Source: a virus | Strand: one strand, 5' to 3' | Length of the DNA stretch: 21,211 nt | IMG/VR virus record: IMGVR_UViG_3300050821_003797 | Coordinates: 1-21,211 of that record | Shown here: one piece after another, positions 3,414 to 19,272 of the stretch | How the letters are laid out: each line of letters begins with the position of its first letter | How positions within the stretch are numbered: the stretch's first letter is position 1 | Translations under genes and position numbers: made by a program | The notes under the pieces: generated by a model | The model's database searches: none | What the model saw: the letters and a program-made list of their open reading frames with translations, nothing else | Told to the model about the DNA's origin: nothing

Positions 3414-5662
3414 CGGTCCATTTCAGCCGTCGAGGAGTACACGATATCCTCCATACTTATAGCACGACCCGCTCCCGGTTTTGAAGATATGACTTGCCCT
3501 TGATAGGGTTCGACGTTGACGGGCGGCAGGAGTTGCGAGTTGAGCGCACTGAACCTTTTCTGTGACCGCTCAGTCATGGACTTCAAATCGTTTACGATGA
3601 TTTCAGAGATTGCGGCGGCAAACAGACCATCGTCATGCTCACCTTCTTCGTGTTCCTTTTTCTCTTTTCCCGAAGCGGTGTAGTGAACCTCGAAGTGTTT
3701 ACACTCGTCAATCAGCCACGGAGAATTGATGACGTACCACCCGTTTTGAACGGAATGAACGAAGGAGTCCACCAGAATCGGGCGCGACCACGAGTTTGTG
3801 TACCAACCGATTTTCCGTGACTTCTGTTTCTTGAGATCCTTTCCGTCGTAGCGAATGAACGACGGGAACCTAGTGTAGCCCATCTTTCTCATCTGGACCT
3901 GAGCCACGTCCCCTACTGAAGCGATCTGTTCAACTCCAACAATTGGGTTGCGATGCGGAGTCGAGTTCTCCATATACCTTGAGTAGTAGGCGGCAATGCA
4001 CATGACGAAAGCGTAGGCCGCGACGTGAGATACATAAGCCGAACGAAACTCCGCTACCTGAACGTCAGGTTCTCCGCGTCTCTGGGCCGGCGCCGTGACG
4101 CAGATCACAGTCGAGTCTTTCCCCATACCGTTAGATGTGTCCACGCCAATCGAATAGTCGAATCCAGGTTCGGGTGGATGAAAGACCATCAGCTTCGAGT
4201 TCGCGTAATCGCGGAAGGCGTCGGGTTTGGTTTTGAGAGACGCCAAGTATTCCGCGTTGTGTTTCAACGGGATCAGTTCCCAGCGGTACGAGTCTCCGCG
4301 ATTGGAATTGAACATCACGATCTCGCGGGGCTTAGGGTTGTCGTGGCTCCCGTAGTCGATGTCCTCAGTCGGCGGCTCGAAGTCGTCTTCTATAGACTGA
4401 CCAGAAATTCCGAACGCTTGGAAGTCCTGCTTCGCTGCGTTCTCAACCTGCACCATCACGTCGTAGCCAAAGACGGACTCCTGTGAACGCTGGAGGGCTT
4501 CGATATCATCTCCCGCCATTTCCTGAAACCAGATCGCCTCCATGCCTTTGGCTTTATGTTCCTCGTGCCCGACTTCCCAGAACCACTGCTGCTCAATGGG
4601 CATCGTCCAGTTCGAGCCTAGTTGTTTTCTCAGTAGAGGTGTGCAGGCAATGTAGGCTTCTACGCGAGCAACGTGTTCCCTCGTGTCGGGAAGGCGACGT
4701 TCGTAGAACGCCTCGGGTACGGGGCGCATTCTCAGCCACGCCGGTTTCGGGTAGAGGTCTCTACCGATGACCCACGGGAAGAAGACCGGACAGAGGCGGC
4801 AGGTGCGCGAGGCCCAGTTTTCTTTCGAGTAGTGCCAGGTTTCTGCCCACCAGCCTTCGTCTCCTTCTCCTGTTGATTCAAGTATTCCAAAAATAGACGG
4901 AGATGCATGCACAGCCTTAAATAGTGACGCCTCAATTTGCTCTTTGGCGTTTGTGAATGACGCGCATTCCGAGAGATGATATAGAGTCGGAGTAGATCCA
5001 CGCGCAATTCCTGACATCTGGTTTCCATGCTGGACGTACACTCCCGAATTGAGTTGTCCGAACGTAAGTTCTCCATTTTCTGTCTCCACGCGAGAAGTGT
5101 ATTGCGGGCGCAACCAGATGGGAAGCATATCGTATCCCATCAGAAGTTTCTTGCCCATCATCTTCGACTTCTGCCGGTCGGCGCTGGCTATGATCGCATT
5201 CACGCCGTTTGAAAAAATAATGCGAAACATGATGAGCAGTTCGACGACAGTGGTCATACCTAATTGTCTTGCTTTAAGAATCATGATCTCGATAGCGGCA
5301 TCGAGTTCTTCAAGATCGGAGATGACGTTGAAAAGAAGCAGCTGGGCCAAGCGGAAAGTAAAGCGGCGAATCACGCCCTCTTCATCGGTAACGTATCCAT
5401 ATCGCGTCAAGGCATACGCGGCATCGCACATCACCAGTAGTTGCTCATTGAGCATCCATTGCGATTCCTGGACAGAAAGATTTTTGGTGGCGACCGGAAG
5501 ACCTGTCGAGTCGTAATGATATTTATTTCCCTTGCGAAGACGTTCCTCGAATTCCTCGACTTCCCACACCTCATGGTGCGTCAGGCGAATAGGAATTCCC
5601 TGCTCCATAAGATCGGCCTCCGCGAGCGCGATGCGTCTGTCAACGTGCCTCTGGCAGTACAT
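3404..5662 (-). CDS. terL: Terminase large subunit (TerL)
   Basis: The DNA-packaging motor: an ATPase that docks at the portal and a nuclease that cuts the concatemer. The deviant Walker A KARQLGMTT is at about 131-139, followed by a Walker B-like LYHLSE with the catalytic Glu near 233, and the coupling motif ESTGEG at 263-268. The C-terminal RNase H-like nuclease shows its acidic triad: GVDTSNG with Asp near 509, GVEQ with Glu near 579, and EHDDG with Asp 678/679. At about 750 residues it is long for TerL. The first ~100 residues are extra, and about 300-440 forms a long insertion between ATPase and nuclease. The preferred ATG at 5662 overlaps the previous stop (TGATG); a TTG one codon earlier is possible. 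All active-site residues appear intact. Confidence 0.95.
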   Translation of the reverse strand: MYCQRHVDRRIALAEADLMEQGIPIRLTHHEVWEVEEFEERLRKGNKYHYDSTGLPVATKNLSVQESQWMLNEQLLVMCDAAYALTRYGYVTDEEGVIRRFTFRLAQLLLFNVISDLEELDAAIEIMILKARQLGMTTVVELLIMFRIIFSNGVNAIIASADRQKSKMMGKKLLMGYDMLPIWLRPQYTSRVETENGELTFGQLNSGVYVQHGNQMSGIARGSTPTLYHLSECASFTNAKEQIEASLFKAVHASPSIFGILESTGEGDEGWWAETWHYSKENWASRTCRLCPVFFPWVIGRDLYPKPAWLRMRPVPEAFYERRLPDTREHVARVEAYIACTPLLRKQLGSNWTMPIEQQWFWEVGHEEHKAKGMEAIWFQEMAGDDIEALQRSQESVFGYDVMVQVENAAKQDFQAFGISGQSIEDDFEPPTEDIDYGSHDNPKPREIVMFNSNRGDSYRWELIPLKHNAEYLASLKTKPDAFRDYANSKLMVFHPPEPGFDYSIGVDTSNGMGKDSTVICVTAPAQRRGEPDVQVAEFRSAYVSHVAAYAFVMCIAAYYSRYMENSTPHRNPIVGVEQIASVGDVAQVQMRKMGYTRFPSFIRYDGKDLKKQKSRKIGWYTNSWSRPILVDSFVHSVQNGWYVINSPWLIDECKHFEVHYTASGKEKKEHEEGEHDDGLFAAAISEIIVNDLKSMTERSQKRFSALNSQLLPPVNVEPYQGQVISSKPGAGRAISMEDIVYSSTAEMDRWR

Positions 5663-11578: not shown

Positions 11579-11773
11579 ATGGAAGCCATGACACACGAGG
11601 AAGCGCATCTATGGTCGCAGTGGTTAAACTCTCTTTCCATCCGCGCAGTTGAGGAATCCCTCTCGGACAATACAGAAATAGTGGATTGTCAGCGGATGCG
11701 CTTTGCAGTTGAGGCGTCTGCCCTGGCCTTGCGTGCTGAGTTGGTTAGAGGAGGATTTTTGTGGAAGCAGTAG
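11579..11773 (+). CDS. Small protein upstream of the recombinase
   Basis: A 64-residue, acidic, helix-rich protein (EEAHLWSQWLNSLSIRAVEESL..., AVEASALALRAELVRGG). The ATG has GGAG five bases upstream. Its 3' end overlaps the recombinase start by 13 nt, so translation is coupled. It may be a partner or regulator of the recombinase, but no family is recognised. Confidence 0.6.
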   Translation: MEAMTHEEAHLWSQWLNSLSIRAVEESLSDNTEIVDCQRMRFAVEASALALRAELVRGGFLWKQ

Positions 11774-12432
11774 CGTACATGAGATGCAGTTCCAAAGGTT
11801 CCCTAAACGGGGATACCTGGCAACGGCAGATTGCCGCAATACAGGCGTGCGCCCTAGCTCAAGGCTTCGAGCTGGCCCAAGAGTTCCGCGAGGAAGCCGT
11901 ACCGGGCAAGATGGACGAGGATCATAGACCAGCATTCCAGTTGATGATTGCATCGCTGCTCGGGAACGGATGCAGGACAATTATTGTTGAGTCCCTAGAT
12001 CGTCTGGCACGCGAGTACCGGATTCAGGAATCGCTGATTATCTATATTGCCAGCAAGGGACTCACGCTGATATCCGCGAACACTGGCGAGAATATTACCG
12101 AGGCCATGATGGGCGATCCCATGCGTCGGGCTCTGGTGCAGATTCAAGGAATCCTAGCGGAGTTGGATAAAAACATGATCGTGGCCAAACTCCGCAAGGC
12201 CAGAGAACGGAACAAAATAAGCAACGGCCGCTGCGAAGGTCGCAAGCCCTTTGGGATGAAACCGGGGGAATCGCTGGTGCTGGAGCACATCCGAAAGTAC
12301 CGAGCACAAGGTTATCAATACTGGTCTATCGCGGAATGGCTGAATGCTGAAGGCCACAAAACCCGCTACGGAAAGAAGTGGCACGCGGGAACTGTGGCCA
12401 AGATTCTTGCGCGGGAAAAGAAGACCGCATGA
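11761..12432 (+). CDS. Small serine recombinase (resolvase/invertase family)
   Basis: A 223-residue site-specific recombinase. The resolvase domain (1-~150) has the nucleophile in AYMRCSS (Ser10, with Arg8), WQRQIAAIQ, and the active-site ESLDRLAREYR (Arg81 and Arg84), followed by the long E-helix (GDPMRRALVQIQGILAELDKN). The C-terminal ~65 residues (GRCEGRKPFG, then a helix, IAEWLNAEGHKTRYGKKWHAGTV) resemble the start of the Recombinase domain and a small HTH. The large zinc-bearing region of phage integrases is absent. It could resolve multimers, invert DNA or act as a minimal integrase. The GTG start has GGAGG six bases upstream. Confidence 0.9.
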   Translation: MEAVAYMRCSSKGSLNGDTWQRQIAAIQACALAQGFELAQEFREEAVPGKMDEDHRPAFQLMIASLLGNGCRTIIVESLDRLAREYRIQESLIIYIASKGLTLISANTGENITEAMMGDPMRRALVQIQGILAELDKNMIVAKLRKARERNKISNGRCEGRKPFGMKPGESLVLEHIRKYRAQGYQYWSIAEWLNAEGHKTRYGKKWHAGTVAKILAREKKTA

Positions 12433-12617
12433 ATAAGTTGATGGACAAAATCGCTAGGAACATCATGAAACCTTCCGTGATGTTCCGGTTTTTGAACCAT
12501 ACACAGTTTTATTGTCGCGTACCGGGATGTAAGCGGTTTGCTGGCAGGCGCCCACTTTGCCGCAAACATCAGGGAAGTACTAAATTCCAGTACCTCTCTA
12601 ACAAGAGAGCCGTATGA
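12429..12617 (+). CDS. Zinc-finger-like small protein
   Basis: A 62-residue basic protein joined to the recombinase by an ATGA overlap. The centre reads YCRVPGCKRFAGRRPLCRKH, a C-x4-C...C-x2-H cluster that can hold one zinc, with basic flanks and an N-terminal helix. Nucleic-acid binding is likely, and it may assist the recombinase. The start at 12429 is chosen from the overlap; a longer reading frame upstream would lie inside the recombinase gene. Confidence 0.6.
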   Translation: MNKLMDKIARNIMKPSVMFRFLNHTQFYCRVPGCKRFAGRRPLCRKHQGSTKFQYLSNKRAV

Positions 12618-12724
12618 CCAAGGAATTTTTGAGGATCACCGTAGCCGTTTGTCTGTTCGTGTTCGGGATTGCGTCCTTTGTGCTCGGATGCGAGCTTCGG
12701 GCTTTGTTTGTCAGTTACAGATAA
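12614..12724 (+). CDS. 36-residue single-pass membrane peptide
   Basis: The ATG overlaps the preceding stop (ATGA). The product begins MTKEFLRI and continues with a hydrophobic segment at about 8-24 (TVAVCLFVFGIASFVLG), then C25 and a short basic end (ELRALFVSYR). It is a typical tiny phage membrane protein. The VLGC could be read as a poor lipobox, which would make it an Rz1-like lipopeptide, but position -2 is atypical and no Rz partner is seen. Confidence 0.5.
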   Translation: MTKEFLRITVAVCLFVFGIASFVLGCELRALFVSYR

Positions 12725-12755
12725 AAATCCTCCAGCTTTGGAATAGTGAGGCAAC

Positions 12756-12995
12756 ATGCGCGCCGCTGACCTGATTACCGACGATGGAACCGTGAGGCCG
12801 TTTGTGGTCGAGTGTCGCCGTGGTCTCACGCATTGGCAGTGGAGAGCATCGGACACCTGGAATAAGTGGCAAAACTCTTGGCTGCCGTCTATCGAGGATT
12901 TCTCTCGCCTCAAGTCTGACATGCAACTCATTAGGCCAGAATCGCTCATCATTTGGCCGGAAGAAGATGGACAATTCACTTGGGAGGACTGCTGA
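12756..12995 (+). CDS. Small Trp-rich protein, unknown
   Basis: A 79-residue protein with six tryptophans (HWQWRASDTWNKWQNSW and later), acidic at the C-terminus (PEEDGQFTWEDC). GAGG lies four bases before the ATG. It may be a small beta-sandwich or surface-binding protein. No family is recognised. Confidence 0.6.
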   Translation: MRAADLITDDGTVRPFVVECRRGLTHWQWRASDTWNKWQNSWLPSIEDFSRLKSDMQLIRPESLIIWPEEDGQFTWEDC

Positions 12996-12997
12996 TT

Positions 12998-13258
12998 ATG
13001 CTCGCATGGGGAGAAAGTAAGGGAGCGCTGCTGAATCGGCGTCTCCATGAATTAAACGATGGAACTAGCCCAGTCAGAGAAGACCCTGACTGGTACTGGT
13101 ACTCACTCGGCATCGAAGTATCGAACGCACCGGAAGATGACAAGGAGCACGGAATACCGGTCTGGCTTGGCTGGGGTATCGCGTTTCTTGTTGGCGCGGC
13201 AATTTGGACTGTGTTAATTTGGGCGGCAACGGAGGGGTACAAACATGTTGGACGTTAA
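12998..13258 (+). CDS. Small protein with C-terminal membrane anchor
   Basis: An 86-residue protein: a polar N-terminal ~55 residues (DWYWYSLGIEV, EDDKEHG) and one transmembrane helix at about 58-77 (PVWLGWGIAFLVGAAIWTVLIW), followed by a short basic tail. The ATG at 12998 is two bases past the previous stop; GGAGG lies about ten bases upstream. It overlaps the propeller gene by 14 nt, so membrane anchor and secreted propeller are probably made together. Cell-surface or superinfection function is a possibility only. Confidence 0.6.
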   Translation: MLAWGESKGALLNRRLHELNDGTSPVREDPDWYWYSLGIEVSNAPEDDKEHGIPVWLGWGIAFLVGAAIWTVLIWAATEGYKHVGR

Positions 13259-14438
13259 ACGAATCGTGTTCACAGTCTTGGCTCTGGCTTCTATGGCCAG
13301 TGCTCAGTTTCTCAACTCAGAACTAACCGATCCCGCAGGACAGCAGCAGGATCAACTCGGAACTTCTGTCGCTATCAGCGGGAGCGTGCAAGCATCTATG
13401 CGCGCCGGCACCGTGGGGCTATTTGAACCGGACGCGAAGCTGGGGTGGAAGGGCGCCGTCATGGCTGGGACATTGCGCGCCTCGGACGGAGCACAGCTTG
13501 CGAACGTGGCAATATCTGATTCCGGGAAAGTGGTAGTTGCTGGAGCGCCGAGCGAACAAGCGGCTTATGTTTTCGTCGAACCTGCTTCTGGCTGGGTGGA
13601 TTCCACTGAAACCGCGAAGCTAACAGCGTCCGATGGACAGCAAGGCAATTTGTTCGGCTCATCCGTATCGCTGAATGGCCCCACGGTCATGGTTGGCGAT
13701 CCGCTGGCCGGCGAGGCTTACATTTACCTGCAACCTGCAAGCGGCTGGGTTAACGCTACAGAGACCGCCAGACTCACAGAAGGAAAGCAGGTAGGTGGAG
13801 ACCTGTTTGGTGCTTCCGTGGCCGTGTACGGCTTCCGTGCTGCCGTGGTGGCCCCTCTGGGGGATGGTTCTGGATGTGGCGCTGTGTATGTCTATCAAGA
13901 ACCTTTACAGGGCTGGTCTGGAGTGCAGTCCGAGCAGGGAATATTGACGGTCAAGAATACAACGAGCTGCCAGAATCACCTGTACGGCCCTGTTTCCGAG
14001 ATAGCCGGGACCGTGGTCATTGGCGGATTCTATTTCAGCCCATCAACCGGCCGTCTCGGTGCTGGGTACATCTACAACCAGCCACAAGGCGGCTGGGTTT
14101 CTACCAGTACCCCAGATGCCGTGTTGATGATGCAGGAGTACTACAAGTCATCCCCGCAGTCCGTGGCAATGGACCAGGACACCGTAGTGCTCGGCGATCC
14201 GGTTCCAACCAACGGTCAGCAGCAATGGCGCGGGAGTGGGTTTGTGTACTTCAAGCCGCAAACGGGCTGGGTTACAGCTCCGCAGTCGTTACGCCTAGTA
14301 CCTCACCAGACCGATACCCTAGCCGGCTCAAGCGTGGCCGTACAGAAGGGGAAAGTCTTTCTTGGTTCTCCTGGTACTACGGTAAACGGCAACCAAGGTC
14401 AAGGTGCGACGTTTGTTTACACAGCGAAGGCGAAATGA
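13245..14438 (+). CDS. Secreted FG-GAP-like beta-propeller protein
   Basis: A 397-residue protein with a clear signal peptide: basic MLDVKR, hydrophobic core IVFTVLALASM, cleavage after ASA at about residue 20. The mature part has about six repeats of roughly 50-60 residues. Each has an 'LFG.SVS/A' strand, a 'VMVGDP'-type turn, an 'AYIY' strand and a Gly-Trp near 68, 117, 168, 224, 284 and 342, the layout of FG-GAP/integrin-alpha-like propellers. Such proteins act outside the cytoplasm in adhesion or carbohydrate/protein binding. GGAGGGG precedes the ATG. A secreted propeller in a phage is unusual and is either a host-altering 'moron' gene or a virion/host-surface factor. The repeat phrasing points to an Acidobacteriota-type origin. 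Confidence 0.8.
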   Translation: MLDVKRIVFTVLALASMASAQFLNSELTDPAGQQQDQLGTSVAISGSVQASMRAGTVGLFEPDAKLGWKGAVMAGTLRASDGAQLANVAISDSGKVVVAGAPSEQAAYVFVEPASGWVDSTETAKLTASDGQQGNLFGSSVSLNGPTVMVGDPLAGEAYIYLQPASGWVNATETARLTEGKQVGGDLFGASVAVYGFRAAVVAPLGDGSGCGAVYVYQEPLQGWSGVQSEQGILTVKNTTSCQNHLYGPVSEIAGTVVIGGFYFSPSTGRLGAGYIYNQPQGGWVSTSTPDAVLMMQEYYKSSPQSVAMDQDTVVLGDPVPTNGQQQWRGSGFVYFKPQTGWVTAPQSLRLVPHQTDTLAGSSVAVQKGKVFLGSPGTTVNGNQGQGATFVYTAKAK

Positions 14439-14596
14439 AAGATTTTCAATTTTAGAAACCGTAAGAGTGGGTAACCGGGATGTGGTCTTTGGCCGCAATA
14501 CAGCCGTTAGGATGATGTTGGCTAAGCCTGTGGCCCTTGACCACTCCCGGAGGGTGAATCGTTCGTCCTGGCTCATCCCTGCGCTGGGACGGTGCC

Positions 14597-15139
14597 TCAG
14601 AATGGCAACGTATCAAAATCTACGGAACCTTTACAGAAGTCGAGTGTAGAGCCGGGAGGCAGGTCATCCTTCTTGGCCTTCCGGCGTATCTCTTGCAATT
14701 CTGCTACGGTGCTCGGGTAACTCACTGCCTGCTTGAAGTCCTTAATTGTGATCCACTCATCCACAAAGTCCCAGCGCCCGCCTTCGTGCTTCTGTCCCCA
14801 TGATTGAATCAGAATTCGAGAGCCAGAGAGCAAACACAGCTTTGCTTCCATACTGGCTAGAATTTTGTTGCGGCGAGTCGAGTGATTGGATCGTGAGGTT
14901 ACTTGAACGAAGATCACACTGCCCAAGGTGTTCCCTTGTAGGTCTGTTACTCGACCTGGGTACAGGGCAACCATATCGAACACTTCCCAGAGGTCCGAAC
15001 TGATCTCGATCATCGGTTGATGACCGCAGGCACGGCAGGCCCGTTTCTTGCGATCAGGGAATTTCTTTTTTTTCTCAACCGTTCCGACTAGATACCCGCG
15101 CTCGGTCAGGTTTTGGCGTGAGCGTAACTGTGGGGTCAT
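14597..15139 (-). CDS. PD-(D/E)XK-like nuclease, atypical active site
   Basis: A 180-residue protein. Residues 31-42 hold a basic CRACGHQ motif. The core DLWEVFDMVALYPG at about 49-62, then VIFVQVTSRSNHSTRRNKI at about 75-93 and RILIQSWGQK at about 108-117 follow the strand-strand-helix-strand pattern of small restriction-like or Holliday-resolvase-like nucleases. The Asp of FD would be the first catalytic residue. The usual E-x-K is Q-V-T here, so activity is uncertain. It is the last gene of the leftward block and joins the preceding one by ATGA. Fold assignment is from pattern only. Confidence 0.5.
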   Translation of the reverse strand: MTPQLRSRQNLTERGYLVGTVEKKKKFPDRKKRACRACGHQPMIEISSDLWEVFDMVALYPGRVTDLQGNTLGSVIFVQVTSRSNHSTRRNKILASMEAKLCLLSGSRILIQSWGQKHEGGRWDFVDEWITIKDFKQAVSYPSTVAELQEIRRKAKKDDLPPGSTLDFCKGSVDFDTLPF

Positions 15140-15516
15140 AATTCACCATCCAAGCAAGCATCTGATACAGCCTTTTGCCATTTGTGAATTTCAGGAGGCA
15201 ATTTGCTCCACGCTTCCTTGAATCGTTCCATCTGCTTCGGGTCTGGCTGTTTGTACATCCGCGACACGGCCATCGAGAATTCATCCCACGGTAGCGGCAA
15301 GCTGCCCATGATGACAGCACACATCCTCGCTACATCGGGATCACGAAATGGCCCGAGGGCAATTGCAGTACTCCGCACGTGAGTCACATTGAAAAATTCC
15401 GACGTGTCAATATCGGGGTTTGATATTGGTTTCGTGATAACGAAATGCGGTGATGCAGTTGGCCAAGACGCCACGGTGCTCAACTCGCCAGTTTTAGTGT
15501 TGTACAGTTCGATCAT
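15136..15516 (-). CDS. Unknown protein in the replication-type operon
   Basis: A 126-residue protein, beta-rich at first (IELYNTKTGELSTVASW, FVITKPIS) and helical in the second half (DPDVARMCAVIMGSLPLPW, MERFKEAWSKLPPEIHKW). ATGA overlaps join it at both ends. No family is recognised. Confidence 0.65.
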   Translation of the reverse strand: MIELYNTKTGELSTVASWPTASPHFVITKPISNPDIDTSEFFNVTHVRSTAIALGPFRDPDVARMCAVIMGSLPLPWDEFSMAVSRMYKQPDPKQMERFKEAWSKLPPEIHKWQKAVSDACLDGEL

Positions 15517-15815
15517 GCGCGACTCCAGTGCAACTGAGATGGTACCGCTTCTTGTTGCCCGTGTTTAATGCGGTGACACTTCCCACATTTGCCCGACGTT
15601 GACTCCTGCGTGTCGTCCCTGCGTGATCCACCCATGCCGCGACCGTCTGTGTGGTCTAGGTGGAACGAGTCATCGAATATCGGAGGCGCATCCAACCGCG
15701 TAGGTCTGCCACAGTCAATGCAACTCCCACGCTGCAAGGCCCACATGGCACGGCGAAATTCGGTGTAGTGGACTCCGGTCCTGATCGTTCGGCAGTCTTT
15801 CGTTTTCGTTATCAT
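15513..15815 (-). CDS. HNH endonuclease
   Basis: A 100-residue HNH nuclease. A CIDC pair (Cys32, Cys35) and a second CGKC pair (Cys77, Cys80) can hold the structural zinc. The catalytic FHLDHTDG (His52, Asp54, His55) is followed by GGSRRDDTQ and HRIKH. This is the compact stand-alone form common in phages, either a packaging-associated nuclease or a homing/defence nuclease. It lies in a replication-type operon far from TerL, which makes a packaging role less certain. ATG overlaps the upstream stop (ATGA). Confidence 0.88.
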   Translation of the reverse strand: MITKTKDCRTIRTGVHYTEFRRAMWALQRGSCIDCGRPTRLDAPPIFDDSFHLDHTDGRGMGGSRRDDTQESTSGKCGKCHRIKHGQQEAVPSQLHWSRA

Positions 15816-15970
15816 TTTCGATGCTGGTTAATCGCTTCTCGAATGTGTTCAGCCAGTTTTTCTAAAGTTGGAAACCCGACATTGCAGTCATGGCACCAGG
15901 CGCGATGCGGCTCTGGAATCTTGAACTGCGGTTTCAGTGACAAGAGCGGCTTGATCTCTGGCAGGTTCAT
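15812..15970 (-). CDS. C2H2-like zinc-finger mini-protein
   Basis: A 52-residue protein starting at ATG 15970, chosen from the ATGA overlap with the upstream gene. WCHDCNVGF...AEH...NQH gives C-x2-C-x12-H-x7-H, close to a C2H2 finger, though the last spacing is longer than usual. The N-terminus is Pro/Lys-rich. It directly precedes the HNH gene and may bind DNA. Confidence 0.6.
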   Translation of the reverse strand: MNLPEIKPLLSLKPQFKIPEPHRAWCHDCNVGFPTLEKLAEHIREAINQHRK

Positions 15971-16611
15971 TCGCCAAGAGTCCTCAACTGCGCTGCGCGC
16001 TCTCGGTTCGAGTACGGCCCTTCTTCCCACTGGGCGTCCAGGTAATCAGCGCACAAGCCTTCGACAAACTCCTCGACGGGGGCTGAGGGATTGTTCATAG
16101 TTCGATAACACTGCAACGCTTCGTCGAACACTTCTGCGGCCGAAACAGGGAAGTTGAGCACTCGCGCATCGCACTCCTCGATCAACTGCTCTGGGTGTTT
16201 CTCCGTGACAACTTTCCGCAAGTCACGCGGTTTTTTCTTTGCAGCCTCGCGTACCTCGGGATCTCTGCGAACTGCCGGCGAGAGTTTGCGGAGTGTCGTG
16301 GTCGAGTCCAAATCAATCTCTGCCAGCTCCGCATCGGAAAAGTCGTCTTTCAATTCTTTATAGCGCCCGGTTACGAGGTAGATGTAAGCGCGAGACTTCG
16401 GAGCTGCCGCCAGAATCCACTGGTGGAAACTCTTGAAGCCGAGTAAGAGGTAATCCCGGTCCCGCTCGACATCGCAGCAGACGCGGGCTATGGCGCTCCA
16501 ATCATTGAATCGAGCCTCAAACTCTCGCACGAAGTGATCTCGATACTCTGCCCGATCTTGGGGAGTGAGACTTGATGAGGGGCGGACTTCTATGTCAACG
16601 CACGTTCCCAT
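15967..16611 (-). CDS. Unknown helical protein, possibly DNA-binding
   Basis: A 214-residue, mainly helical protein. The region about 25-75 (EARFNDWSAIARVCCDVERDRDYLLLGFKSFHQW) followed by SRAYIYLVTGRY recalls phage/plasmid proteins that begin 'speed of growth/host plant-like' sensing helices with an HTH. About 95-135 has LRKLSPAVRRDPEVREAAKKK, a basic patch like those in ParB-type HTH proteins. The similarity is loose, so no function is assigned. One base separates it from the upstream gene. Confidence 0.6.
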   Translation of the reverse strand: MGTCVDIEVRPSSSLTPQDRAEYRDHFVREFEARFNDWSAIARVCCDVERDRDYLLLGFKSFHQWILAAAPKSRAYIYLVTGRYKELKDDFSDAELAEIDLDSTTTLRKLSPAVRRDPEVREAAKKKPRDLRKVVTEKHPEQLIEECDARVLNFPVSAAEVFDEALQCYRTMNNPSAPVEEFVEGLCADYLDAQWEEGPYSNRERAAQLRTLGE

Positions 16612-16612
16612 T

Positions 16613-16867
16613 TTACCGTGTCCTCCACACTCGTAAGCCGTAAGGAACAGCGCGGAACTCGAAGGTCCACCCGGTCACACGTTGCGCGTTGCGCCGTGAA
16701 CTTGAAAGAGAATTCCATGCCCTGTATTTTGCCTTAGGTCTCGGTCCCTGCCACCAGATGTACTTGACCAAGAAACTATCCCCAACATTCAACCGCTTCC
16801 ACGGGTAGTGATGCTTACCTCGGAAACCTTCCGCTGGCATCGGTATCCCTGTTTGAACCGGAACCAT
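16613..16867 (-). CDS. Short phage protein of the 'YPW..L.VGDSF' type
   Basis: An 84-residue basic protein. The pattern YPWKRLNVGDSFLV ... GWTFEFRAVPYGLRVWR is one I know from many short uncharacterised phage proteins located among replication genes. Its function is not established. GGAGGGCG precedes the ATG at good spacing, and the gene follows the loader candidate by four bases. Confidence 0.65.
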   Translation of the reverse strand: MVPVQTGIPMPAEGFRGKHHYPWKRLNVGDSFLVKYIWWQGPRPKAKYRAWNSLSSSRRNAQRVTGWTFEFRAVPYGLRVWRTR

Positions 16868-16870
16868 GAT

Positions 16871-17344
16871 TCACGCCCTCCACTCAGGACTGCCACCGCG
16901 CAACTTGTCGAGCGAATCGTAAATCACGCCCCACTCCGAAGTGGTCAGTTGCCGATTGACCTGTGCGCGTTTCTTCGCGTGCTCACGAACGAGGTACAGA
17001 ATGTCATTCTCGCCGTACCCTTTACCGTGCCGATCCCGGCACTCTGCGTTACAACCTTGAGCGAAAGCCTTTGGTGGAACAAAGGTCTTGCAGATATCAA
17101 TGATTTGAAACGGCACCGGGAAAAACATTGCGAGCTGGCGGTGAGTGTCGAAAGCAAACTCAATCGCCTCCAGACTGAACCCGCTTAAATCCTGTTCCCA
17201 GCGTGCGATCTCGGCGGGTGTCAATTCTTTCTGAGGGAAGGTTTCGAGTTGAATCTGTAGCAACTCTCCGATTCTGTCGAGCTTGCTCAAGGGCGGCACT
17301 ATTTCGCCGTGCCCGGTGCGTCTGCGCGGTTTGGATTGAGGCAT
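16871..17344 (-). CDS. Candidate helicase loader or replication accessory
   Basis: A 157-residue protein. The segment ELTPAEIARWEQDLSGFSLEA followed by IEFAFDTHRQLAMFFPVPFQIIDI resembles the helical N-terminal pattern of phage helicase-loader/inhibitor proteins (W..L..F....I..A......F.P...I). The C-terminus is basic and helical (LVREHAKKRAQVNRQLTTSEWGVIYDSL). The ATG has AAGGAG five bases upstream, so this start is good even though it lies inside the 3' part of the upstream gene. No helicase gene is in the window. Confidence 0.5.
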   Translation of the reverse strand: MPQSKPRRRTGHGEIVPPLSKLDRIGELLQIQLETFPQKELTPAEIARWEQDLSGFSLEAIEFAFDTHRQLAMFFPVPFQIIDICKTFVPPKAFAQGCNAECRDRHGKGYGENDILYLVREHAKKRAQVNRQLTTSEWGVIYDSLDKLRGGSPEWRA

Positions 17345-17648
17345 CTGGACTCCTTCTGAATCTGTCTAGGGGGCCAACTGAGTAATCGTGTATCCGGGAA
17401 AGGAAGCTGCGAGGGCGTTCACCTGGTGCGATGTCGTCTGACACGCCGTAGTTATACAACCAACGCTTAAATTCTGGCAATTCCAATTTTGGAGAACTCT
17501 TGAGCAGGCGGGTTAACTGATTAGCTTCCGCTCCATCCCAAGGGCAGCTATGACCCCAGCGCCATTCGTAGAAGTGGAGCACCATCAACTTGAAGTCTGC
17601 GAAGCGATGACCGTTCCCATTGGGAGGAGTGAGTTTAAATTCACTCAT
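17160..17648 (-). CDS. Unknown replication-region protein with long 3' overlap
   Basis: A 162-residue protein starting at ATG 17648 (GAGG six bases upstream). The first ~100 residues look well-coded and alpha-helical (FADFKLMVLHFYEWRWGHSC, EANQLTRLLKSSPKLELPEF, then RWLYNYGVS, PGERPRSFLSRIHDY). From about residue 102 the frame runs 185 nt into the next gene and the composition becomes Arg/Ser/Thr-rich, typical of a second frame. The real product may include this tail, or a stop or frameshift may be missing. It sits just before the helicase-loader candidate and may work with it. Confidence 0.6.
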   Translation of the reverse strand: MSEFKLTPPNGNGHRFADFKLMVLHFYEWRWGHSCPWDGAEANQLTRLLKSSPKLELPEFKRWLYNYGVSDDIAPGERPRSFLSRIHDYSVGPLDRFRRSPDASIQTAQTHRARRNSAALEQARQNRRVATDSTRNLPSERIDTRRDRTLGTGFKRVQSGGD

Positions 17649-17871
17649 GTGTTGCCTCGAATGTGCTACGTCCCGCCTTGGGCTTACGGAAGTCCTCCGC
17701 GTTGGGACAGGTTGACCAGTGAGCAATCGCGGTTCCGTGGTTCATTGGAATCTTCTTGCCCTTTGGAGTGTGCCACCATTCAATATTCTCTCCGCACGCC
17801 CTACACTTCGCCGTACCCTCGTGTCGGTACCCGGATGCCGTCATTTCTTCCAAGGTTTTTGGGAATCCCAC
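17641..17871 (-). CDS. Small zinc-binding phage protein
   Basis: A 76-residue protein: FPKTLEEMTASGYRHEGTAK, then CRACGENIEWWHTPKGKKIPM and a later HWSTCP. This 'C..C...IEWW.TP.GK.IP' pattern is a recurrent short phage protein with one zinc site (Cys pair plus distal His/Cys). The start GTG 17871 is chosen because GGGGGAAT precedes it and a promoter-like element upstream would overlap any longer N-terminus. ATG 17844 is an alternative. It overlaps the next gene by eight bases. Function unknown. Confidence 0.75.
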   Translation of the reverse strand: MGFPKTLEEMTASGYRHEGTAKCRACGENIEWWHTPKGKKIPMNHGTAIAHWSTCPNAEDFRKPKAGRSTFEATHE

Positions 17872-17947
17872 ATTCCCCCGCTTTCTTCTAGATAATGCTT
17901 TCAGGTGGAGTTTTTGATTGTGTTTACCTGCTCTCCACTGATAAGGC

Positions 17948-17976
17948 ATTACCGAGTTGTAGATTTTAGAGATCAA
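17948..17976 (-). promoter_or_regulatory. Candidate promoter of the leftward replication-type operon
   Basis: On the minus strand, TTGATC (17976-17971), a 17-bp spacer and GGTAAT (17953-17948) lie about 75 bases upstream of the first gene's GTG. The match to consensus is moderate. It is the best such pair in the gap. Confidence 0.35.
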
Positions 17977-18215
17977 GTCATCCCTTAATGGTGAATGGGC
18001 ACGCGAAGACCAAAGGCTCTGGAACCGCAGCCAATCTCGGTCTACGCGCATCCCCCAACGGAGCCTAGGGCTTTCGCGTGTCTTCTACCCCTCACAATAT
18101 GTAGACCGTGCCGAAATCTCTATCGGTTTAGGATCTAGCCTTGACGAGTCGGAAGGAGGCTCAAGACAGCCCCAAAGCACCCGCCGCACGTTTCCGAGCG
18201 GAAAACGGCTGGTTT
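17977..18215. other. Gene-free part of the second divergent region
   Basis: About 240 bases with no gene I can support. Reading frames here are short and have a composition unlike their neighbours. Nothing further is recognised in this part. The structured part of the region begins at about 18216. Confidence 0.4.
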
Positions 18216-18300
18216 TGGTAGAATGGCTGTATCAGGTAGCCGTTCTTCCGTACCAACCCTTGAAACACAAGAAAGCCCCGCGAAAGCGAGGCTTTCTTCT
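18216..18300 (+). ncRNA. Candidate short RNA ending in a GNRA-loop terminator
   Basis: An extended -10 (TGG-TAGAAT, 18216-18224) without a good -35 lies about 45 bases upstream of a strong intrinsic terminator, with no ORF between. Transcription starting near 18231 would give an RNA of about 70 nt. It could be a regulatory RNA of the divergent region, or the hairpin may simply stop readthrough in either direction. Confidence 0.3.
18269..18298. terminator. Strong bidirectional terminator, GAAA loop
   Basis: Arms 18269-18281 and 18286-18298 form a 13-bp stem with one mismatch, closed by a GAAA tetraloop. Its outer arm AAGAAAGCC/GGCTTTCTT supplies T-rich tracts on both strands, as in typical intrinsic terminators. 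Confidence 0.75.
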
Positions 18301-18335
18301 ATTCCAAATACATTCAATGATTGCGTTGTATTCAT

Positions 18336-18387
18336 ACTGGAACCTTTATGCCCCCAGATCACCGGGTTCCAGTCGGCGTCTGGGGGC
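18336..18387. repeat. Interleaved inverted repeats, pseudoknot-like
   Basis: ACTGGAACC (18336-18344) pairs perfectly with GGTTCCAGT (18365-18373), and GCCCCCAGA (18350-18358) pairs perfectly with TCTGGGGGC (18379-18387). The order is A-B-A'-B', both with a 29-nt offset, leaving connectors of 5, 6 and 5 nt. As RNA this would be an H-type pseudoknot with two 9-bp stems. As DNA it is a paired operator. It lies between the terminator and the promoter of the rightward recombination operon. Confidence 0.6.
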
Positions 18388-18468
18388 GAACCCTCTAGGC
18401 GAGAGCAATATTCTTGTACACCTTTCCGCGAAGCAATGCAAGTATTTTATTTTCCACAGCGATTTTTC

Positions 18469-18497
18469 TTGACACGCACTTCAATAAGGATTATTAC
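18469..18497 (+). promoter_or_regulatory. Sigma70-type promoter of the rightward operon
   Basis: TTGACA (18469-18474), a 17-bp spacer and TATTAC (18492-18497). The dyad AATAA-GGA-TTATT (18483-18495) overlaps the -10 and is a possible operator. The ATG of the first gene is only eight bases past the -10, so the message would be leaderless or nearly so. Confidence 0.65.
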
Positions 18498-18505
18498 AAG
18501 AACTC

Positions 18506-18649
18506 ATGGACACTCAATTTATTCAGCTTCGCAAGTTCCCGTGCGATATGGCACGCCTAGCGAAGTCAAAAGCTGCGCTGGCAGGGCAGACATTGGATGA
18601 GTACCTAACTCAACTACTGATTAAGGCCCTGACGATGAGGAAGAAATGA
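18506..18649 (+). CDS. 47-residue ribbon-helix-helix protein
   Basis: The product begins MDTQFIQLRKFPCDMARLAK and continues with SKAALAGQTLDEYLTQLLIKAL, which fits the RHH pattern: a short strand, helix 1, a turn, then helix 2. Proteins of this size bind operators as dimers of Arc/CopG type. No ribosome site lies at useful distance, an in-frame stop lies just upstream, and the promoter -10 is eight bases from the ATG, so leaderless translation is likely. It overlaps the next gene by ATGA. As first gene of the operon it is a likely autoregulator. Confidence 0.7.
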   Translation: MDTQFIQLRKFPCDMARLAKSKAALAGQTLDEYLTQLLIKALTMRKK

Positions 18650-19272
18650 AGAATGAACTAGAGCTACACGTCGAGACTCCGCTTAAATGGCCGGAGGATC
18701 GTCCTCGCACCAGGTTCCAAGACCGTAAACCTCAGAACGCTTGGAAGCTGACCTACCAAGACACAATGGCTGCGCTTGAGCGGGAAATGCGGATGTCTAA
18801 GGTCACCTTCGCCAAGATCACGCACAACCCTCCCGGCCACGAGGATGCTGGAGTCGCAGTCTGGATGTCCCGCAAGCCGATGGACGACTACGCATGGCAG
18901 GATGAGTTTGGTTTCATCGGAGAGATTCCCACAGTGCAGGAGTTGGATCGGGCCTATATGCAGAAGGCGCGCAAGTGTGCTCCAGACTGCCCTACCCCCA
19001 ACGTGGACAGGTTTCGGGAGTTGACTAAACTCCGAGACCAAGGACGGCGATGGATTCGCGGCGAAAGAATGGTTGAGCACGAGTCCGTCATGGCATCCGA
19101 CAAGTTCAAAGAGGTGCGCCACAACCTCAACGCGATTCGCATCACATTGGCTGCACTCCGGCAGATCGAGCGCTGTGGTGATCCGGCAATGACCGAACAA
19201 GCATGGCGGGGTTTCAGGCCAGCACTAGCCGCTGGACCTTCGGAGGACATCAATGCCACAACCGTTGCTTAG
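18646..19272 (+). CDS. J-domain-like phage protein with degenerate HPD
   Basis: A 208-residue protein. Residues about 20-80 (PRTRFQDRKPQNAWKLTYQD, ... LEREMRM, ... GVAVWMSRKP) match a phage-specific N-terminal module. About 84-137 (WQDEFGF...PTVQELDRAYMQKARK-C-APD-CPTPNVDRFRELTKLRDQGRRW) follows the helix II-loop-helix III pattern of a DnaJ domain. The hallmark HPD, which activates DnaK, is APD here (112-114), so DnaK stimulation is probably lost. The C-terminal half is helical (LNAIRITLAALRQIERCG). It is joined to the RHH gene by ATGA and overlaps the next gene by 20 nt. Probably a replication/recombination partner; J-domain identity is by pattern. Confidence 0.55.
   Translation: MKNELELHVETPLKWPEDRPRTRFQDRKPQNAWKLTYQDTMAALEREMRMSKVTFAKITHNPPGHEDAGVAVWMSRKPMDDYAWQDEFGFIGEIPTVQELDRAYMQKARKCAPDCPTPNVDRFRELTKLRDQGRRWIRGERMVEHESVMASDKFKEVRHNLNAIRITLAALRQIERCGDPAMTEQAWRGFRPALAAGPSEDINATTVA

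Follow-up and report, generated by a model that had tools for sequence, protein, structure and literature searches.

A compact interleaved inverted repeat beside an intrinsic terminator in a phage of probable acidobacterial host: a candidate pseudoknot RNA

The intergenic region and its flanking genes

The stretch of DNA analysed here, hereafter the window, corresponds to an IMG/VR virus record of 21.2 kb (21,211 nucleotides), a fragment whose relatives are acidobacterial phages and prophages. Its terminase is closest to Tunturiibacter phages Tunturi_1 and Tunturi_2 (31% identity), and homologues of the gene following the RHH position occur in contigs from two acidobacterial MAGs. Given this terminase kinship and these homologues, an acidobacterium is the probable host. 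Two operons, one leftward and one rightward, diverge from a region amounting to approximately 2% of the window, and it is within this region that the element described below is placed. Table 1 presents the features of the region and the genes that adjoin it.

Table 1. Features of the intergenic region and adjoining genes (positions are those of the window)
Feature	Position	Strand	Description
First gene of the leftward operon, 136 aa	17641-18051	-	Relatives in L003 and L004; PHROG 5984
Intrinsic terminator	18260-18307	-	AGAAAGCC/GGCTTTCT-type stem; 22-nt arms, 82% complementary
AU-rich hairpin AATACA...TGTATT, between pseudoknot and terminator	18306-18333	-	From the minus-strand minimum free energy (MFE) fold
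Arm A	18336-18344	none assigned	ACTGGAACC; exact reverse complement of 18365-18373
Arm B	18350-18358	none assigned	GCCCCCAGA; exact reverse complement of 18379-18387
Arm A'	18365-18373	none assigned	GGTTCCAGT; makes up the 9-nt loop in the minus-strand B'/B hairpin
Arm B'	18379-18387	none assigned	TCTGGGGGC; pairs exactly with arm B
Second, weaker leftward promoter candidate	18407-18436	-	TTGCTT-18-AATATT; not significant
Rightward promoter	18469-18497	+	TTGACA-17-TATTAC; score reached by 3.5% of shuffles
Candidate leftward promoter	18490-18517	-	TTGAGT-16-AATAAT, TG ahead of the -10; score reached by 27% of shuffles
47-aa gene at the RHH-gene position	18506-18649	+	Placed by position and by the syntenic relatives L002 and L005

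On the leftward side, the first genes match no toxin family in profile searches. The terminator that precedes them is of a type that also occurs in acidobacterial genomes, and its sequence suggests that it could function in both directions. On the rightward side, the 47-aa protein returned nothing significant in profile searches of its own, and AlphaFold predicts two helices with no confident ribbon; it is from synteny alone that the gene is regarded as a putative RHH gene. Its ATG starts 8 nt after the rightward promoter, so close that the mRNA would apparently be leaderless. The same arrangement is seen in two related loci, L005 and L002: in all three RHH-position genes (18469-18506 in the window, 3008-3047 in L005, 4815-4855 in L002), TTGACA-17-TAxxxx is followed by an ATG approximately 8-11 nt later, and the mRNAs appear leaderless.

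Two other genes of the window deserve mention. The first, which follows the RHH position, is a member of a phage and prophage family (18646-19272 in the window, 3193-3834 in L005, 4995-5606 in L017, 4977-5609 in L018) with a DnaJ-like J-domain and an HPD motif; Pfam DnaJ matches below its curated cut-off in L005, L017, and L018, and the motif is degenerate (APD) in the copies of the window and L002. A serine recombinase of 223 aa (11761-12432) harbors a resolvase domain and just the start of a recombinase domain, and is possibly a short or truncated integrase.

Frequency and conservation of the interleaved repeat

The initial annotation described two exact 9-bp complementary pairs, interleaved in the order A-B-A'-B', and inspection of positions 18336-18387 bears this out: the four arms are separated by connectors of 5, 6, and 5 nt, both pairs have an offset of 29 nt, and the whole spans 52 nt. 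Two exactly complementary stems (9+9 bp) that interleave in this way correspond to the arrangement of an H-type pseudoknot. No second interleaved pair of at least 8 bp (8+8 or 9+9) is present elsewhere in the 21.2-kb window.

How rare such an arrangement is depends on the sequence against which it is measured. For exact 9+9 pairs, the analytic expectation is 3e-4 per 21-kb window for a total length of at most 52 nt and 1e-3 for at most 60 nt, falling to 6e-6 and 2e-5, respectively, in the 454-bp intergenic region. Under a looser rule allowing up to 60 nt per pair, 100 shuffles yielded 0.02 overlapping counts per window, and 400 shuffles yielded no 9+9 cluster, with 1e-4 for the intergenic stretch; shuffles and analytic expectations are thus of the same order of magnitude. 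Interleaved cases are commoner in real DNA than in shuffles, at 0.26 per 21 kb (240 kb examined), and four 9+9 cases were found in 839 kb of viral loci. Over a background of approximately 1.1 Mb, composed of related or random viral loci and of bacterial contigs, the cases are mostly mosaics of one repeated motif, one of them being a GC-rich stretch present in two loci; every one is longer (at least 62 nt), and none is as compact as the 52-nt element. The element is therefore unusual at its spot, yet some like it would turn up by chance if thousands of windows were scanned. Its earlier description as far beyond chance in 52 bases is accurate for the spot itself (approximately 1e-5 in the intergenic region) and too strong once many windows are read. 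Separately, a 103-kb phage contig sharing the exonuclease gene (L008) harbors an intergenic interleaved inverted repeat of 9 + 11 bp at 5321-5393, which is a pseudoknot candidate in its own right.

No relative carrying the element was found among IMG/VR pattern scans, 399 related genomes, or phage records. Four IMG/VR pattern scans gave no second interleaved copy; a pattern match in L011 was rejected, being inside a coding gene, and the 33 and 64 matches to half of the element lacked the other half. A degenerate form of B/B' matches 33 contigs, in which only the copy of this window is interleaved. DNA matches in phage records and in the 399 genomes, which are related to an acidobacterial MAG, were discarded: the best share the terminator type alone, and the others are short and at chance level. 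No Rfam family reached its gathering threshold, and the weak matches (STnc100, istR, and others) were rejected as well, their scores reaching about half the gathering score at most and the best of them aligning mainly via the terminator.

Syntenic relatives were sought with three neighbouring proteins, the best being L002 and L005, in which the protein after the RHH gene is 87% and 39% identical, respectively. Both have the divergent layout, an RHH gene (matching Pfam RHH_5 in L002, and RHH_1 just below the cut-off in L005) and a leaderless-type promoter as in the window, and the interleaved element is absent from both. In the same intergenic region they harbor a GC hairpin (4207-4245 in L002, 2950-2987 in L005), which resembles B/B' but is a conserved nested A-B-B'-A' structure located on the plus strand, in a rightward leader behind its own promoter. 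The resemblance of this GCCCTCGGA/TCCGGGGGC hairpin to B/B' extends to 7/9 and 8/9 bases with one apparent compensatory pair; homology is not convincing, as approximately 3% of shuffles score as high. The hairpin also has an outer CCAACG/CGTTGG and a T-run and may be a short RNA or an attenuator, and the two regions (4119-4246 in L002, 2856-2987 in L005) carry back-to-back consensus promoters.

These data bear directly on chance, which is a serious rival explanation, if on balance a doubtful one. Two unrelated short inverted repeats may simply overlap in noncoding DNA, or only the GC-rich B/B' pair may matter, A/A' being accidental. With approximately 0.001 cases expected per window, an element singled out after many windows had been scanned could be of this kind, the more so as interleaved repeats exceed shuffled expectation in real DNA, as B/B'-type GC hairpins are widespread, and as neither syntenic relative conserves the element. 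What chance accounts for less easily is the compactness, matched by no background case, and the location in the small part of the window between divergent operons.

Predicted folding and a candidate minus-strand RNA

The minus strand between 18410 and 18265 folds at -64.3 kcal/mol with a z-score of -5.55, versus -4.47 for the plus strand. The terminator is the best part of the minus-strand fold and contributes much of the z-score; without it, the values are -3.24 (minus) versus -2.02 (plus). In the minus-strand MFE fold, B' and B form a 9-bp hairpin with an inner 5-bp stem, whose loop is exactly arm A' (ACUGGAACC). Arm A, located 5 nt downstream on this strand, is complementary to the entire loop. 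Stacking of the two 9-bp helices amounts to -22.7 and -18.0 kcal/mol, a sum of approximately -41 kcal/mol before any pseudoknot penalty. Such a penalty is about 10 kcal/mol, and the pseudoknot (approximately -31 kcal/mol) would thus be competitive with the nested minimum of the minus strand (-28.0 kcal/mol); that of the plus strand is -24.3 kcal/mol. Against it, the inner 5-bp stem of B'/B competes with the pseudoknot, and connectors of 5, 6, and 5 nt leave two 9-bp stems little room, making fraying of stem ends likely. In the minus-strand MFE fold, the AU-rich hairpin together with UGGAAU (18302-18307), ahead of the terminator, gives arm A another possible partner. An arrangement of mutually exclusive attenuator hairpins was considered and rejected, since neither helix overlaps the terminator stem.

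Along the minus strand, a candidate promoter is followed in turn by the element, the AU hairpin, the terminator, and the leftward operon. The reading that we favour, tentatively and at somewhat short of even confidence, is that this order reflects a structured leader or small RNA with an H-type pseudoknot ahead of the terminator. RNA polymerase would start leftward somewhere within 18483-18400; the B'/B hairpin with its inner stem would be made first, exposing A' as a 9-nt loop, and arm A, made next, would pair with the whole of this loop to give the pseudoknot. The AU hairpin would then form before polymerase reaches the intrinsic terminator (18302-18269), where most transcripts would stop, leaving a stable RNA of approximately 140-220 nt; read-through would supply the leftward operon. 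The RNA could accordingly be a small RNA or a cis-acting leader by which the amount of read-through into this operon is set.

Several observations favour this minus-strand RNA: the repeats are exact and intergenic and adjoin an intrinsic terminator of a type known from acidobacterial genomes, and the minus strand is predicted to fold better than the plus strand with and without that terminator. Between the terminator and arm A no plus-strand promoter able to start there was found (best score 4.5), and the element precedes the good rightward promoter. Beyond the terminator the leftward operon has no better promoter (best score 5.76), and the leftward operons of L002 and L005 also begin with a leader of approximately 200-370 nt behind a consensus promoter. 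Other results tell against it. None of the leftward promoter candidates near the element scores above chance in shuffles, the weak Rfam matches centre on the terminator, as does much of the folding signal, and the absence of the element from L002 and L005 leaves neither conservation nor covariation. The structured RNA proposed in the initial annotation nevertheless gains from the intergenic position, the abutting terminator, and the stacking energy, and fares better than the double operator and the recombination or attachment site that it listed beside it.

DNA-level readings and known RNA systems

At the DNA level, the four arms could be binding sites of a phage regulator of the divergent promoters, an explanation that we consider unlikely. 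It draws on the position between divergent operons, followed by the RHH-position gene, and on the arms themselves: CTGG occurs in every arm in one orientation or the other, and CTGGAACC is seen again at 18019. However, arms A and B' agree in merely 5/9 bases, and RHH half-sites are shorter. An RHH operator is expected to overlap its promoter and to be conserved with the RHH gene; the element lies 82 bp upstream of the rightward -35 box and is missing from both syntenic relatives with RHH genes, which makes the proposed double operator a weak candidate.

A more specific RNA reading, which we rate as very unlikely, is that the element resembles the put sites of phage HK022 and acts as a factor-independent antitermination RNA, allowing polymerase past the terminator 30 nt downstream and thereby expression of the leftward operon. 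The put RNAs are approximately 70 nt long, with two stem-loops near early promoters (PMC9378689), and the element would likewise open a phage early operon with a compact two-helix RNA ahead of a terminator. The likeness is drawn from this layout (promoter, two-helix RNA, terminator, early operon) and not from sequence. By contrast, the two put stem-loops are nested and stand side by side, whereas the helices of the element interleave, and HK022 has two put sites where a single copy is seen here.

Finally, an attachment or resolution site of the serine recombinase, in which inverted repeats are common, can be set aside as extremely improbable: serine att sites have one dyad centre round a crossover dinucleotide, beside the integrase gene, whereas the element has two dyad centres 14 bp apart, is not symmetric about one crossover point, has no second copy in the window, and lies 6 kb from the only recombinase (12432 to 18336).

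The minus-strand RNA can also be set beside other pseudoknots. H-type pseudoknots are found in riboswitches and leaders such as SAM-II and preQ1, and the element shares with them interleaved stems within a 50-nt leader; unlike them, it has no Rfam match, and its stems overlap neither a terminator nor a ribosome-binding site. The type III antitoxin ToxI and the pseudo-ToxI of phage TE likewise combine an H-type pseudoknot RNA with a Rho-independent terminator and then a gene (PMC5086642); pseudo-ToxI acts in trans as a decoy that counters a toxin-antitoxin defence of the host. They differ from the element, which is a single copy with no tandem pseudoknot repeats and with no ToxN-like toxin gene identified downstream. 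By analogy, there is a slim chance that the element represents an undescribed class of phage pseudoknot RNA, a short terminated transcript that controls termination into the leftward operon or, like pseudo-ToxI, serves as such a decoy RNA in trans.

As judged from its sequence, the element is at present a well-defined candidate. Acidobacteria are abundant in soil, and their viruses have received little study; should the element be transcribed, it would count as a regulatory RNA of such viruses and would indicate that, where an early phage operon begins, a pseudoknot can precede a terminator.
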